Assembly (NCBI GenBank): GCA_910574995.1
Contig: CAJTCS010000001.1
Coordinates: forward strand, 186,001-250,000
Direction of reading: 5' to 3'
Origin: Oscillospiraceae bacterium
Lineage (GTDB): Bacteria; Bacillota; Clostridia; Oscillospirales; Acutalibacteraceae
DNA length: 64,000 bases
Both the position numbers and the translations under genes were made by a program. This document shows, piece after piece, positions 2,516 to 63,999 of the stretch. The notes under the pieces are model-generated. The model had not been told where the DNA came from. It did no database searches and worked only from the letters and a program-made list of their open reading frames with translations. How positions within the stretch are numbered: position 1 is the stretch's first letter; every line of letters starts with the position of its first letter.

Positions 2516-3517
2516 ATGGCAAAAATCATTGGCAGGCCCGCCCTGCCCAACATGCCCTGGCAGGACAAGCCCGCCGGGTACGCAAAGCCCGTTTGGCGCT
2601 ATGACCAGAACCCCATCATCCCCCGGGACGCCATCCCCACCTCCAACAGCGTCTTTAATTCCGCCGTGGTGGTCTTCGGCGACGCCTACGCCGGCGTCTT
2701 CCGCTGTGACAACCGGGGCGTAGAGATGGACATCTTCGCCGGCTTCTCCCAGGACGGCGTGCATTGGGAGATCAACCACGAGCCCATCGTCTTTGAAGGG
2801 GAGAAGGATGTGGTGCGCAAGGAGTACCGCTATGACCCGCGGGTGTGCTTTATCGACGACCGGTATTACATTACCTGGTGCAACGGCTATCACGGCCCCA
2901 CCATCGGCGTAGGATATACCTATGATTTCAAGACCTTCTACCAGCTGGAGAACGCGTTCCTGCCTTACAACCGCAACGGCGTGCTGTTCCCCCGGAAGAT
3001 TGGCGGCAACTTTGCCATGGTCAGCCGCCCCAGCGACACCGGCCACACCCCCTTCGGCGACATCTTCTACAGCGAGAGCCCCGACCTGTGCTATTGGGGC
3101 AGGCACCGCTTCCTGTTTGGCACGGCCAACGGCTGGCAGTCCAAAAAAGTGGGCCCCGGCCCCACCCCCATTGAGACGGACGAGGGTTGGCTGATGATTT
3201 ACCACGGGGTGCTCAATTCCTGCAACGGCTTTGTATACCGCTTCGGTACGGCCCTGCTGGACATCGACCGGCCCTGGATTGTGAAAGAGCGGGGAAGCTT
3301 CTATGTATTCGGCCCCGAGGTAGAGTATGAGCTGACCGGCGACGTGCCCAACGTCACCTTCCCCTGCGCCACCTTGACAGACCCGGAGACCGGGCGCATC
3401 ACGATCTATTACGGCGCGGCGGACACCGTTACAGGCCTTGCCTTTACCACTGTGGACGAGCTGCTATCCTATATGCGCCAGTACCCCATGGACGTGGGGG
3501 ATCAGGAAAACAAATAA
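2516..3517 (+). CDS. Glycoside hydrolase family 130 protein (mannoside phosphorylase-like)
   Basis: This is a 333-aa cytoplasmic GH130 five-bladed propeller protein without a signal peptide. GH130 enzymes phosphorolyse beta-mannosides (for example beta-1,4-mannooligosaccharides) to alpha-mannose-1-phosphate. Family hallmarks are the N-terminal NPIIPRDAIP, the YDPRVCFIDDRYY segment near residue 105 carrying the conserved Asp that protonates the glycosidic bond, and WLMIYHGV near 225. Length fits the family. The start is the ATG after AAGGAGAGGATCCCT. The gene is monocistronic, followed by a strong terminator, with no sugar transporter next to it, so the exact mannoside is unknown. Confidence 0.9.
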   Translation: MAKIIGRPALPNMPWQDKPAGYAKPVWRYDQNPIIPRDAIPTSNSVFNSAVVVFGDAYAGVFRCDNRGVEMDIFAGFSQDGVHWEINHEPIVFEGEKDVVRKEYRYDPRVCFIDDRYYITWCNGYHGPTIGVGYTYDFKTFYQLENAFLPYNRNGVLFPRKIGGNFAMVSRPSDTGHTPFGDIFYSESPDLCYWGRHRFLFGTANGWQSKKVGPGPTPIETDEGWLMIYHGVLNSCNGFVYRFGTALLDIDRPWIVKERGSFYVFGPEVEYELTGDVPNVTFPCATLTDPETGRITIYYGAADTVTGLAFTTVDELLSYMRQYPMDVGDQENK

Positions 3518-3538
3518 GCGGCCTATCCTGTGCTGCGA

Positions 3539-3577
3539 AAAAGGCCCCGGAGAGTAGCGATTCCTCGGGGCCTTTTT
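3539..3577 (+). terminator. Rho-independent terminator after GH130 gene
   Basis: An A-run, then a GC-rich arm (AAGGCCCCGGAG), a short loop and CTCGGGGCCTTTTT. It can act in both directions. Confidence 0.85.
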
Positions 3578-3636
3578 GTGCGGGCCGCGCCGATGGAACA
3601 AAAGGCATGTATGTATTCCCCCGGAAAATATATAAT

Positions 3637-3666
3637 TTGACAGGATACCACCGCATATGTTATACT
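3637..3666 (+). promoter_or_regulatory. Sigma-A promoter for TM2-domain gene
   Basis: Consensus TTGACA (3637-3642) and TATACT (3661-3666) are separated by 18 bp. They lie 35 bp before the GTG start. Confidence 0.85.
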
Positions 3667-3700
3667 TTCCATAAGAGTTTTAAAAGGGAGGGGTTTCCCC

Positions 3701-4213
3701 GTGGATATGGAACAGAACAATTTGCAGCCGCAAGAGTACCAGCCGCCTCAAGAATACCAACAGCCCCAGCAGCCCCAACAGCCAGGGCCGCAGCCGTATC
3801 AGCCCTATCAGCAGCCGCCCCAGCCCATGAAGTTCTGCAAACATTGTGGGGGGCGCATCCCGGCGGACGCCGTGGTGTGCACTTTGTGCGGCAGGCAGGT
3901 GGAGGAGCTGGCTGGCAGCAAACAGGCGGCCAACATGCCCATCGTCATCAACAATAACAATAATAACAACAATAATAACAATAACAATGTTGTTGCCGGG
4001 CCCGGCGTGGTTTATATGCCTCAAGGCCGTGCCCGCAGCAAATGGGTGGCGGTGCTGTTATGTTTCTTTGTTGGGTGGCTGGGGGCCCATAAGTTCTACG
4101 AAGGGAAAATTGGTATGGGCGTGCTGTACCTTTTTACCATGGGGCTCTTTGGCTTTGGCATCCTGATCGACTTTATCACATTGATCTTTAAGCCCGACCC
4201 TTACTACGTATAG
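3701..4213 (+). CDS. TM2 domain protein with zinc ribbon and poly-Asn tract
   Basis: This is a 170-aa membrane protein. The order is a Gln/Pro-rich N-terminus (residues 1-44), a zinc ribbon with two CxxC pairs (FCKHCGGRI and VCTLCGRQ, about 46-66), a run of 13 Asn residues (84-96), and a C-terminal TM2 domain of two helices with the conserved GWLGAHKFYEGK signature between them. TM2 proteins are small membrane proteins of mostly unknown role. The GTG at 3701 follows AAAGGGAGGGG; an ATG two codons later is an alternative start. It is monocistronic with its own promoter and terminator. Confidence 0.9.
   Translation: MDMEQNNLQPQEYQPPQEYQQPQQPQQPGPQPYQPYQQPPQPMKFCKHCGGRIPADAVVCTLCGRQVEELAGSKQAANMPIVINNNNNNNNNNNNNVVAGPGVVYMPQGRARSKWVAVLLCFFVGWLGAHKFYEGKIGMGVLYLFTMGLFGFGILIDFITLIFKPDPYYV
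3950..3988 (+). repeat. In-frame (AAY)13 trinucleotide repeat (poly-Asn)
   Basis: Thirteen consecutive AAC/AAT codons encode a poly-asparagine linker between the zinc ribbon and the TM2 helices. Confidence 0.95.
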
Positions 4214-35718: not shown

Positions 35719-35847
35719 GGGACATAAAAAGCGGCTTCCTGCGGGGGCCTGTGCGCTATACGCCTTGTACGGGCTAGACGTTTGTAGGGAGGCTATACCG
35801 GGGCCGCCGGTGCGGCCGGGGGCTTATGGTGCGGCGATGGGGCAGGT

Positions 35848-36012
35848 TAGGGCTTGTTTGAAAATAGAGAAAGCGCCGGGATTTTTGTTCAAAACGGAGC
35901 GGTTTCAAGGCGGAAACCGCAAGAAAACCTTTCGGTTTTCGAGGATTTCCAACACAGGAAACGCCCGTTTTGGGCAAAAAGATGGTGTTTGCGATTTTTC
36001 AAACGGGCCCTA
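35848..36012. mobile_element. 165-bp MITE-like repeat, copy 1
   Basis: This is a TA-bounded element with terminal inverted repeats of about 18 bp (left TAGGGCTTGTTTGAAAAT, right complement TAGGGCCCGTTTGAAAAA) and internal palindromes (GCGGTTTC/GAAACCGC; GAAAACC/GGTTTTC; GCCC/GGGC). A copy of the same length and about 97% identity is at 62158-62322. TA at both ends fits the target choice of IS630/Tc1-mariner transposases. It lies in the 445-nt gap between recJ and rel; the flanking parts of the gap hold only a hairpin (about 36075-36125) and no gene. Confidence 0.8.
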
Positions 36013-36163
36013 GGACGGGAAGCTTTGAAAATGCGCGCCTGGCCAGTGGCCATGGGTTGTACGGGTTCAAAAAGCCGGGGGGATACCCGGCGCATAGGCG
36101 CGGGGTATCCTGGGATCCTTTTTATGCGTCAGCTTTAGGCCCTGAAAGAGAGGAGAGAGAGGG

Positions 36164-60607: not shown

Positions 60608-61111
60608 CTAGTTGGCCCCTTCCCACAGCACGGGCCGGCCTGCCTGGCGGGTAGCGGCCATGTCCAGCAGGCGTTGGTTCTCGCTGCCCCGGAAAGCCAG
60701 CTCCAGGTTTTTCTGCCCCTCCAGGAAGGGGCCGTCTATCAACAGGTCGGTCTCTGCCAGAAGGGCCTGTACCTGGGGGTCTTCCATAACGGCCAGCTGC
60801 TCATAGGTATACCCGGTGAAGGTGGCCACGTCTTTCCCCACGGCGTGTACCCGTTTTGCCAGTTCTGCCAAGGGGCCAGGCTGGCAGAAGGGTTCGCCGC
60901 CGCTGAACGTAATGCCCTTTAAGATGGGGTCGGACTGGAACCCGGCGAAAATCTCCGCCGTGTCCATGGCCCGCCCCCCTTGGAAAGGGTGTGTCTGGGG
61001 GTTGTGGCAGCCGGGGCAGCGGTGGGGGCACCCCTGGACGAACACGGTATAGCGGATGCCCGGCCCGTCGACAATGGATTCGGCCGCGATACCGGCAATC
61101 TGCAATTCCAT
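60608..61111 (-). CDS. nrdG: Anaerobic ribonucleotide reductase activating protein NrdG
   Basis: This 167-aa radical SAM enzyme installs the glycyl radical on NrdD. The radical-SAM cluster motif is CPHRCPGC (Cys28, Cys32, Cys35; Cx3Cx2C), after GPGIRYTVFVQG, and TFSGGEPF is near residue 68. Length is typical. It lies downstream of surE and the separate glycyl-radical gene on the same strand. Confidence 0.95.
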   Translation of the reverse strand: MELQIAGIAAESIVDGPGIRYTVFVQGCPHRCPGCHNPQTHPFQGGRAMDTAEIFAGFQSDPILKGITFSGGEPFCQPGPLAELAKRVHAVGKDVATFTGYTYEQLAVMEDPQVQALLAETDLLIDGPFLEGQKNLELAFRGSENQRLLDMAATRQAGRPVLWEGAN

Positions 61112-61124
61112 AGGGGCGCCCCTC

Positions 61125-61874
61125 CTATAAGCAAAATTCCTTGTCCCGGAATCCCTCGCTGTCGGTCAGGTCAAAAACCAAAGGCGTAAGGGACACATAG
61201 CCATTGGCCGTGCAGCCAATGTCCGTGTCCATCCCATATCCCGGCGTAGCGCCGTCTTGGATATTTTTCAGCCAGTAATAGTCCCGGCCATCAGGGGCCT
61301 GGCGGTGCTCATAGGTATCGGCCCACAGGTGGGTCCGCCCGGCGGGCACCCACCGGACGCCCTTTATCTCCTGCCCGGGCAGGGCGGGGATGTTCACGTT
61401 CAGCATAAAATCGATGTCGTTTTCTACGTCCAGCTGTCCCAGCAGCCGGGCGAACACCTGGGCCGCTTTGTCAAATTCCCCATCCCACTGGGTAGACACG
61501 GCAATAGACCTTTTGCCCAGCATGGCGGCCTCCATGGCGGCTGAAACGGTCCCAGAGTACAGCATGTCCATGGCCACGTTCAAGCCCCTGTTGATGCCGG
61601 ATACCACCAAATCTACCGGCCCCTCTGCCAGGGACAGCACCCCCAGCCGGGCGCAGTCGGCGGGCGTGCCAGAGACTGCATAGGCGGCCTTTGCCCCAGG
61701 CACCTCGCGCTTTTCCGTAAACAGCGGCATGCGGACTGTCAGCCCATGGCCCACGGCGCTGCGCTCCTCCATGGGGGCGCTCACCGTTACGGTATGGCTT
61801 TCCCCCAGCACCTGCGCCAGGGCCCGCAGGCCGGGGGCGCCTATGCCGTCGTCATTTACCAACAGGATATGCAT
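61125..61874 (-). CDS. surE: 5'/3'-nucleotidase SurE
   Basis: This 249-aa metal-dependent nucleotidase dephosphorylates nucleoside monophosphates. It shows the N-terminal metal motif ILLVNDDGI (Asp-Asp), SGTPADC (about 90) and VVSGINRGLN with YSGTVSAAMEA. ATG 61874 lies 8 nt after GGAGG; ATG 61880 is too close to the ribosome site. The ribosome site lies inside the 3' end of the upstream small gene, indicating coupling. Its placement between the nrdD pieces and nrdG is unusual but fits nucleotide metabolism. Confidence 0.94.
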   Translation of the reverse strand: MHILLVNDDGIGAPGLRALAQVLGESHTVTVSAPMEERSAVGHGLTVRMPLFTEKREVPGAKAAYAVSGTPADCARLGVLSLAEGPVDLVVSGINRGLNVAMDMLYSGTVSAAMEAAMLGKRSIAVSTQWDGEFDKAAQVFARLLGQLDVENDIDFMLNVNIPALPGQEIKGVRWVPAGRTHLWADTYEHRQAPDGRDYYWLKNIQDGATPGYGMDTDIGCTANGYVSLTPLVFDLTDSEGFRDKEFCL

Positions 61875-61876
61875 GG

Positions 61877-62053
61877 TCATTTCCTCCCCAAGGTGTGCTT
61901 GACCCGGTCCTGTTCCTCGGCGCGCTTGGCGTTGTTCCAGCGGTCGATGGTGCCCACCAGATAGCCGGTGATACGGCGGATGCGTTCGAAGCCCAGGCCC
62001 TCGCCTACAACAATTTCCTTGCCCTCGGTCTTATACTCTTTTACGCTTGTCAT
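61877..62053 (-). CDS. Stand-alone glycyl-radical C-terminal domain of anaerobic ribonucleotide reductase
   Basis: This 58-codon gene encodes GLGFERIRRITGYLVG followed by TIDRWNNAKRAEEQDRVKH. It matches the very C-terminus of class III NrdD, where the glycyl-radical Gly lies in an R-x-T/C-G-Y-L segment and is followed by a conserved N-x-x-K/R...RVKH tail. The predicted radical residue is Gly30. It has a strong ribosome site (AGGAGGAAACCAAC) and surE overlaps its end. The main NrdD ORF upstream lacks this segment, so the two proteins together would form the active enzyme. NrdG, the activase, is in the same cluster. Confidence 0.8.
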   Translation of the reverse strand: MTSVKEYKTEGKEIVVGEGLGFERIRRITGYLVGTIDRWNNAKRAEEQDRVKHTLGRK

Positions 62054-62157
62054 GTTGGTTTCCTCCTAATTATATTTTTCATGAACTATTCCCTTCGCGC
62101 GGGGACACGCATATTCCAATAACCCTGTATCTCCCATCCCCCGCCCCATATCCAGTT

Positions 62158-62322
62158 TAGGGCTTGTTTGAAAATAGAGAAAGTGCCGGAATTTTTGTTC
62201 AAAACGGAGCGGTTTCAAGGCGGAAACCGCAAGAAAACCTTTCGGTTTTCGAGGATTTCCAACACAGGAAACGCCCGTTTTGGGCAAAAAGACGGTGTTT
62301 GCGATTTTTCACACGAGCCCTA
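62158..62322. mobile_element. 165-bp MITE-like repeat, copy 2
   Basis: The same element as 35848-36012, same length, TA at both ends, with terminal inverted repeats TAGGGCTTGTTTGAAAAT and (complement) TAGGGCTCGTGTGAAAAA. It differs by roughly five to six bases. It lies in the 365-nt gap between nrdD and the stand-alone glycyl-radical gene. The rest of the gap (62054-62157, 62323-62418) shows no gene and no clear promoter. Confidence 0.8.
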
Positions 62323-62418
62323 GATTTGATAGCTTCAAAATATACGCGGTCCAGGGGCGTTAGGCCCTGGCAGGGCGCGGGACAGCGTCTCGCGGCCTTG
62401 CCCTTGCGCCGCGGGCGC

Positions 62419-63999
62419 TCAGCGGATGAGGCAGGTGTAGTCGGGCACGTCGTGATATTTGCTGCGCAGTTCCTCCAGCTTACTGAGCGGCACGCCTTCC
62501 CCGGCCTTGCGGCCGCAGCGGGGGCATACGTCGCCAATGATGCCGTTATACCCGCACACGGGGTCCCGGTCTACCGGGTGGTTGACAGAGCCGTAGCCGA
62601 TGCCCGCCTCTTTCATACAGCGGACGACGCTTTCAAAGGCTTCTATGTTCTTGCACACGTCCCCGTCCAGTTCTACATAGCTGATGTGCCCGGCATTGGT
62701 CAGGGCGTGGAAGGGGGCCTCCTTCTGGATTTTTTCGAACGCGCCGATGGGGTAATACACAGGTACATGGAAGGAGTTTGTATAATAGCCCCGGTCGGTA
62801 ATACCGGGGATCTTGCCATATTTTTTCTGGTCGATGCGCACGAACCGCCCGGAAAGGCCTTCGGCTGGGGTGGCCAATAAGGTGAAATTCAACCCTGTCT
62901 TTTCCGAAAGGCTGTCCATATACCCCCGCATGTGGGTGACGATCTCTAGGCCCAGCTTATAGCTCTCCTGGCTTTCCCCGTGGTGCTTGCCTGTCAGGGC
63001 CTTCAGGGTCTCGGCCAGGCCGATGAATCCTACAGACAGGGTGCCGTGCTTCAACACCTCGGCTACCGAGTCGTTCCGGCCCAGCTTTTCCGAATCGATC
63101 CACACGCCCTGGCCCATCAGGAAGGGATAGTTGTACGCTTTTTTGCTGCATTGTATTTTAAAGCGGTGCAACAGCTGTTCAGCGGCCAAGTCCATGCGTG
63201 CATCCAAAATTTTATAAAACCGCTTGATATCCTTTTGCGCCTCTATGCCGATGCGGGGCAGGTTGATGGAGGTGAAGCTCAGGTTGCCCCGGCCGCAGGT
63301 GGTTTCGCGGCTTTTGTCGTGATGGTTCCCCATTACCCGGGTGCGGCAGCCCATGTAGGCCACCTCGGTGTCATAGTCCCCTGGCTTGTAGTATTGCAGG
63401 TTGAAGGGCGCGTCGATAAAGCTGAAGTTGGGGAACAGCCGCTTGGCGGAAACCCGCATGGCCAGCTTGAACAGGTCATAGTTGGGGTCGCCCTCGTTGT
63501 AGTTCACCCCCTCCTTCACCTTGAAGATCTGTACCGGGAAGATAGGCGTCTCCCCATCCCCCAGGCCAGCCTCTGTGGCCAGCAGCAGGTTGCGGATGAC
63601 CATACGGCCCTGCTCGCTGGTGTCCGTGCCGTAGTTCAGGGAGGAGAAGGGCACCTGGGCCCCAGCCCGGGAATTCATGGTGTTCAGGTTGTGCACCAGG
63701 GCTTCCATGGCCTGGTAGGTGGCCCGGTCGGTCTCCCGCCAGGCGGCCTCTTTGGCATAGGCGCAGGCGTCCTCCGCTTCTTCGGTGATGATCTCCTCGA
63801 AGCCGCCCTCCTTCTGGTGCCGGGGCACAAAGGCCGTGAACCGTTGGCTGTATGCGTCCACGTTTTTCATGGTCACCTTCCGGCCCAGCTCCAGCCGGGC
63901 GGCGTCTACCAGGGCCTCGGCATGGCTGTAGGGCATGCCCTTATGGATCTGCAGGAACTGTATCAGCGCCTTGAAATACTCTTTGCAATAGGTCTTATC
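62419..63999 (-). CDS. nrdD: Anaerobic ribonucleoside-triphosphate reductase NrdD, lacking its glycyl-radical C-terminus; 5' end outside window
   Basis: This is the class III reductase converting ribonucleotides to deoxyribonucleotides without oxygen. At least 526 residues are visible; the frame stays open to the window edge, so the N-terminus (including an ATP cone) is missing. Family motifs include SRETTCGRGNLSFTSINLPR, the GVWIDSEKLGRND region and a C-terminal Cys-rich zinc site (VCGYNGIIGDVCPRCG). Normal NrdD continues into a glycyl-radical segment; here the ORF instead ends with about 30 residues finishing YHDVPDYTCLIR. That segment is encoded by a separate gene at 61877-62053. Confidence 0.93.
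   Translation of the reverse strand, partial: DKTYCKEYFKALIQFLQIHKGMPYSHAEALVDAARLELGRKVTMKNVDAYSQRFTAFVPRHQKEGGFEEIITEEAEDACAYAKEAAWRETDRATYQAMEALVHNLNTMNSRAGAQVPFSSLNYGTDTSEQGRMVIRNLLLATEAGLGDGETPIFPVQIFKVKEGVNYNEGDPNYDLFKLAMRVSAKRLFPNFSFIDAPFNLQYYKPGDYDTEVAYMGCRTRVMGNHHDKSRETTCGRGNLSFTSINLPRIGIEAQKDIKRFYKILDARMDLAAEQLLHRFKIQCSKKAYNYPFLMGQGVWIDSEKLGRNDSVAEVLKHGTLSVGFIGLAETLKALTGKHHGESQESYKLGLEIVTHMRGYMDSLSEKTGLNFTLLATPAEGLSGRFVRIDQKKYGKIPGITDRGYYTNSFHVPVYYPIGAFEKIQKEAPFHALTNAGHISYVELDGDVCKNIEAFESVVRCMKEAGIGYGSVNHPVDRDPVCGYNGIIGDVCPRCGRKAGEGVPLSKLEELRSKYHDVPDYTCLIR

Follow-up and report, generated by a model that had tools for sequence, protein, structure and literature searches.

A predicted class III ribonucleotide reductase of two polypeptides, with the glycyl-radical domain on a separate 58-residue protein

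The window analysed here is a stretch of 64,000 nucleotides from contig CAJTCS010000001.1 of an Oscillospiraceae bacterium, a gut commensal. On its minus strand lie, in this order, nrdD, a short open reading frame of 58 codons, surE and nrdG. The nrdD gene, from 62419 to beyond 63999 (−), encodes a truncated catalytic subunit of class III ribonucleotide reductase (RNR), with the catalytic barrel and the zinc-site cysteines and without the glycyl-radical loop. Its frame leaves the window, which holds 526 residues of it, and the full frame on the contig (L102:2419–4737, −) encodes 772 residues. The zinc-site segment CGYNGIIGDVCPRCGR (62509–62556, −) has three cysteines, the number also seen in most of the clade's fused members, and is followed by a genus-conserved C-terminal tail of 29 residues, KAGEGVPLSKLEELRSKYHDVPDYTCLIR (62422–62508, −), that takes the place of the radical loop. 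An earlier note on this DNA, made from the sequence alone, had NrdD ending without an RxTGYL loop, as we also found, and ending right after the zinc cysteines, which is not so, since the stop comes 29 residues later.

The 58-residue protein, encoded at 61877–62053 (−), is a standalone glycyl-radical domain (GRD), identified from the list of open reading frames, Pfam, NCBIfam and alignment. It carries FERIRRITGYLVG and the RVKH tail. The codon of its predicted radical glycine, Gly30, within RRITGYLVG, lies at 61964–61966 (−), as assigned from the sequence and from alignment to P. copri NrdD. The gene has its own ribosome binding site AGGAGGAA (AGGAGG; 62060–62067, −), so that the description of a separate gene encoding both loop and tail proved accurate. 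Its stop overlaps the start of the surE-like gene (61125–61880, −) in an ATGA, and the cognate radical SAM activase NrdG is present in the same locus, two genes downstream (60608–61111, −; TIGR02491, 140 bits against a cut-off of 126.1). Between nrdD and the GRD gene sits a MITE-like repeat (62149–62331, no strand assigned) with 26-nt inverted ends that are 81% complementary. The repeat, of about 180 bp, is dispersed, with 20 matches in the genome, and a second copy at 35844–36013 of the window is 96% identical. A search of the collected loci found it nowhere but in the copies belonging to the window and, inverted, in a single relative (L013 and L024); in L024 the related copy again lies between nrdD and the GRD gene, in the other orientation. 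The gap holds this dispersed repeat with inverted ends and no decayed C-terminus, in agreement with the earlier note.

A single NrdD model is divided over the two proteins. In a profile search of the whole genome, positions 1–530 of the 562-position Pfam NRDD model (PF13597) fell on NrdD, where the catalytic domain is above cut-off, and positions 533–562 fell on the 58-residue protein, also above the curated cut-off (E 5.4e-8). NCBIfam PRK07111 (746 positions) is partitioned in the same way, with 248–711 on the window NrdD and 711–744 on the small protein. In alignment with the P. copri NrdD chain 8p23, the window NrdD extends to chain residue 704, its MGCRTRV cysteine included, and the 58-residue protein takes up residues 707–743. 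Gly30 would correspond to native P. copri Gly711 if the 8p23 chain has four extra residues, as its length of 743 against 739 suggests. The class III loop RxTGYL is therefore present, but on the small protein and not on the barrel chain. The small protein was placed only in full-length NrdD models across NCBIfam, Pfam and PHROGs, and among Pfam matches to E 1 it had PF13597 only and none to PF01228 (Gly_radical). Two PF01228 radical domains, of the pyruvate formate-lyase type, do occur in the genome, and both sit in long frames (753 and 818 residues), which makes the split look specific to NrdD. The zinc site of the window NrdD has three of four cysteines, which is also the state of most rows of the clade, fused or split.

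RNR makes the building blocks of DNA and is essential, and this pair is the only RNR that we found in a genome that is 99.98% complete. The whole-genome search gave no third place matching the NRDD model besides the truncated NrdD and the 58-residue frame. The class I/II model PF02867 had no match in the window genome and matched in 11 of 14 control genomes; TIGR02505 also had no match there, in a weaker search, as its control exceeded the threshold in just 1 of 14 genomes. The pair is regarded as the sole RNR found because no class I or II model matches. A second full-length NrdD, which the earlier note had named as fatal to its reading, is not present, and its word "obligatory" for the small protein fits this genome, which has no other NrdD-type GRD. 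The relatives set, with the window's own genome, comprises 60 genomes, and PF02867 matched two of them (G035 and G044, each having a fused NrdD) and none of the 29 that belong to the genus. Three genus genomes (G001, G008 and G019) have a distant second NrdD that is 27–33% identical.

The two parts occur together in 28 of the 29 genus genomes, and the exception (G025, 60% complete) has neither; the small frame is thus not missing from any genus genome where this NrdD was found. The GRD gene is under purifying selection in the genus, with dN 0.076 and dS 0.82 over 43 codons in 20 genes (dN/dS about 0.09), and G023, a genome in one contig, has the same split. The low dN relative to dS and the one-contig genome argue that the split is due neither to chance nor to assembly error. 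A sequencing error whose correction would join the two frames is likewise very unlikely, given the conservation in the genus and the differing stops and frames elsewhere.

The split is not confined to the genus and recurs in other Bacillota, related gut bacteria among them. Likeness to the standalone GRD was the criterion by which we collected loci L003–L101 (best 80 of 572, some genomes included twice), so they show breadth and not frequency: a truncated NrdD with a GRD is present in 86 of 99, a fused NrdD in 7, and no NrdD within the stretch in 6. One locus has two GRDs, giving 87 NrdD–GRD pairs. In these the NrdD stop is TAA in 51, TGA in 22 and TAG in 14, the GRD lies in any of the three frames, and the gaps reach 799 bases. 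A Shine-Dalgarno-like string precedes the GRD in 86 of the 87 by a loose test without a control. The order nrdD–GRD–nrdG holds in 63 of the 75 split loci having at least 1.5 kb downstream, the other 11 split loci having too little flank to count. L104, a circular Subdoligranulum variabile record of 90 kb filed as a plasmid, has a split NrdD together with a GRD and a frame resembling NrdG, and in L096, a Fibrobacter-labelled MAG, NrdD has no zinc-site segment and keeps the split-type tail.

Altogether, 142 distinct NrdD frames were classed, and 86 of them have no loop. In 81 of the 86 a standalone GRD accompanies the truncated NrdD at its own locus, and the other five are L103, L122, L124, L126 and L134. 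In L103, from a phage, the GRD is spread over two frames. For L122 and L124 the GRD is on another contig of the same genome, and L126 lies at a contig edge. L134 (G263:C3) is a second NrdD copy of 757 residues that has neither zinc site nor radical loop and adjoins an NrdG-like frame. In a less biased sample of the class, a GRD match turned up in at least 89 of 291 genomes; by reading of the listed matches, at least 10 of these GRD-positive genomes have a split NrdD and at least 5 a fused NrdD with a standalone GRD. Among the NrdD matches listed at 51% identity or more, only two genomes have no GRD match, G061, whose NrdD frame ends early in a genome 73% complete, and G148, whose NrdD is broken. 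Eleven genomes with NrdD matches at 45–49% identity likewise have no GRD among the matches listed.

We modelled the two parts as one chain. In the natural in-frame pair L073, with the stop read as Ser, the GRD residues 781–818 had a block pLDDT of 72–86, and the model superposed on P. copri chain 8p2s_B at 2.8 Å over 637 residues, the model's end reaching residue 735; its alignment was drawn from fused homologues only, so the result indicates fit and not binding. In an earlier one-chain model, of L025 with 31 rows, the GRD was left unplaced, and residues 807–837 were under pLDDT 50. Foldseek and VIA rows returned the class III RNR and glycyl radical enzyme (GRE) fold, as expected.

NrdD has changed repeatedly between the split and fused states. 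In a tree of 140 NrdD bodies with their C-termini removed (L126 and L134 left out, two long rows flagged), built by a quick method with no mixture model, split and fused NrdDs are interleaved with at least 13 changes, 8 of them forced by starred branches, and such counts cannot separate splitting from re-fusion. We also scored the NrdD tails against an HMM of fused GRDs with 200 shuffles per tail. Of 83 tails 79 scored, and in 27 of these no more than 10 shuffles reached the score; for L122, L124, L051, L056, L057 and L076 no shuffle scored as high. These scores support descent of the tail from a lost GRD segment for only some split NrdDs, most clearly L122 and L124. The window tail itself, as a candidate GRD remnant, is indistinguishable from shuffled sequence (112 of 200 shuffles reach its score). 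GEG(V/L) occurs in both this tail and its partner GRD, which counts against the two-polypeptide reading, as both would have to fit after the zinc site; an alignment that set GRDs against the NrdD tail (A1) went unused.

Two NrdDs seem to have been caught in transition, judging by their sequence ends. Fused forms have FERIRRITGYL at this place; the NrdD of G306 ends EEEHFERIPRL and that of G321 SSERVARIKA. Each of these two genomes has a longer GRD on another contig. A longer form of the GRD, with a partly conserved N-terminal extension, is also the extra standalone copy in seven genomes that have a fused NrdD (G136, G346, G198, G151, G285, G029 and G043), and it partners a truncated NrdD in four Selenomonadaceae loci. 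Beside NRDD, Pfam gave only matches under their cut-offs on these longer GRDs. Because NrdD ends that look transitional exist and the longer GRD occurs in both settings, we infer an order from fused to fused with a spare to split. In locus L113 about 650 bases separate an extra GRD gene of the long form from a flavodiiron-like gene with ODP and flavodoxin domains (L113:1654–2853 and 3503–3814), possibly an oxygen-stress setting.

Standalone GRDs also occur on virus contigs. Two virus scans kept 160 loci (best 80 of 271 and best 80 of 382 relatives; 149 contig names). A GRD without NrdD in the stretch was found in 139, some of them at contig ends where a few may be cut; 14 have a truncated NrdD with a GRD, 6 a fused NrdD, and 1 is unclassed. 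Across 50 chosen, mostly long, GRD-bearing virus records, which may be fragments, no NrdD match was found anywhere in the record in 49, the exception being L327 with an NrdD frame of 609 residues. Beside the GRD of L194 lies an endolysin-like gene, with a match to holin that is weak, and beside that of L246 an integrase; PHROGs, run on nine proteins around the GRD of virus contig L197, matched only the GRD itself. The extra GRD of genus member G021 (L142) has the same sequence as that of L197 in the compared part, and the extra GRDs of G005 and G023 adjoin a DNA methyltransferase and weak tail-like matches. The two extra GRDs of G338 adjoin a tail-fibre-like gene and an integrase. In Eggerthella phage EL753P1 a separate GRD (L103:3884–4122) is spread over two reading frames under a gene annotated as hypothetical, and the NrdD of this phage contains an insertion some 340 residues long.

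We think it highly probable that the window encodes a working class III, anaerobic RNR of two polypeptides whose glycyl radical is on a separate, replaceable subunit. The partition of the NrdD models, the conservation in the genus and the status as sole RNR all support the two-protein glycyl-radical enzyme that the earlier note predicted. It is unlikely that the small protein instead serves only to repair oxygen-cleaved NrdD, as YfiD/GrcA does for its enzyme, without being a standing subunit. The seven genomes with a fused NrdD and an extra longer-form GRD, the virus records with standalone GRDs in which no NrdD was found, and the position of the L113 GRD near a flavodiiron-like gene would suit such a role, but the window genome has no intact NrdD to repair and no other RNR was found. 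The likeness to GrcA drawn in the earlier note therefore divides: its "obligatory" part stands for the window genome, and the more literal spare-part comparison fits the seven genomes with a complete NrdD.

Decay of the truncated NrdD to a pseudogene, in a cell living on salvaged deoxynucleosides, is very improbable. Broken NrdDs do exist in some relatives (G148, and the second copy in G100), yet the window frame is intact, both parts persist across the genus, the GRD gene is under purifying selection and nrdG is above its cut-off. We give still less credence to the idea that one long NrdD chain is rebuilt, whether by splicing, by frameshifting or by reading through the stop. In 12 of the 87 pairs the GRD does share the NrdD frame, with one stop between them, but all three stops and all frames occur among them, gaps are as long as 799 bases, a dispersed repeat fills the gap in the window, and no intein or intron signature was seen by eye. 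There is equally little reason to believe that the MITE-like repeat broke a once-fused gene. It does sit between nrdD and the GRD gene, but many split relatives do not have this repeat, and since among the loci searched it was found only in the window genome and one relative it is more likely a later guest.

Oxygen cleaves the chain of class III RNR at the radical glycine and thereby destroys the enzyme. NrdG makes the glycyl radical, which in turn makes a thiyl radical in the barrel. In the two-polypeptide enzyme, NrdD would supply the catalytic barrel, the active-site cysteines and the zinc site, and the 58-residue protein the glycyl-radical loop and C-terminal tail, presumably docking in trans into the barrel at the seat of an ordinary NrdD C-terminus. 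The radical that starts each turnover would form when NrdG takes a hydrogen from Gly30 of the 58-residue protein. Such an enzyme probably arose in two steps, the gain of a spare GRD gene beside a fused NrdD and the later loss of the GRD from NrdD itself, which would have moved the vulnerable loop alone to a cheap protein and kept the catalytic body. A likely benefit, by analogy, is cheap repair, with only the 58-residue part replaced after an oxygen cut. More tentatively, at somewhat less than an even chance, GRDs may be an exchangeable cartridge of bacteria and viruses, a spare that repairs fused NrdD and becomes an obligatory subunit once NrdD loses its own, with GRD-only phages using it to keep or take over host dNTP synthesis. 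If the two-polypeptide reading is true, a reductase with a separate radical part would allow radical transfer in trans to be tested in a simple system. Annotation can miss half of an essential enzyme, as with the EL753P1 GRD under its hypothetical gene, and phages may carry the small half alone. We know of no earlier example of the spare-part idea turned into a standing architecture.

Y06I is the phage T4 spare part of pyruvate formate-lyase. Like YfiD/GrcA and Y06I, the window protein is a small separate glycyl-radical protein that goes with a large GRE without a usable loop, and phage-encoded forms exist in both cases. The two differ in family, PF01228 there and PF13597 here, and in that the large enzyme there is made whole and damaged later, whereas the window NrdD is encoded without its loop. 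In the parts of the source consulted, Andorfer et al. 2021 (PMC8683613) give only YfiD and Y06I as validated spare parts and suggest that further GREs could have their own. Searches of one open-licence library gave no paper that we recognised as describing an NrdD whose radical loop is encoded by a separate gene, and we found no description of this NrdD split in the portions consulted of PMC9531940, PMC9669993, PMC4390871, PMC3019208 and PMC4009431. Phage nrdD genes split into two or more open reading frames are alike in being divided; in the section on them in PMC3653736 most are ascribed to introns, inteins or homing endonucleases and one is unexplained, and that section describes no separate radical-domain gene. 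Split class II RNR, NrdJa/NrdJb, also has its catalytic subunit encoded as two chains, but it is class II and has no glycyl radical (parts consulted of PMC9669993 and PMC4009431). The P. copri NrdD (8p23 and kin) shares with the window pair the barrel, the zinc site, the GRD sequence and the NrdG activase, and, in the portion consulted of its description, has the zinc site and radical loop in one C-terminal domain, residues 676–739, with Gly711 (PMC11226230). The departure of the window enzyme from known class III RNR is that the radical loop is off the barrel chain: the P. copri enzyme is one chain, and the window chain is cut between the zinc site and the loop.
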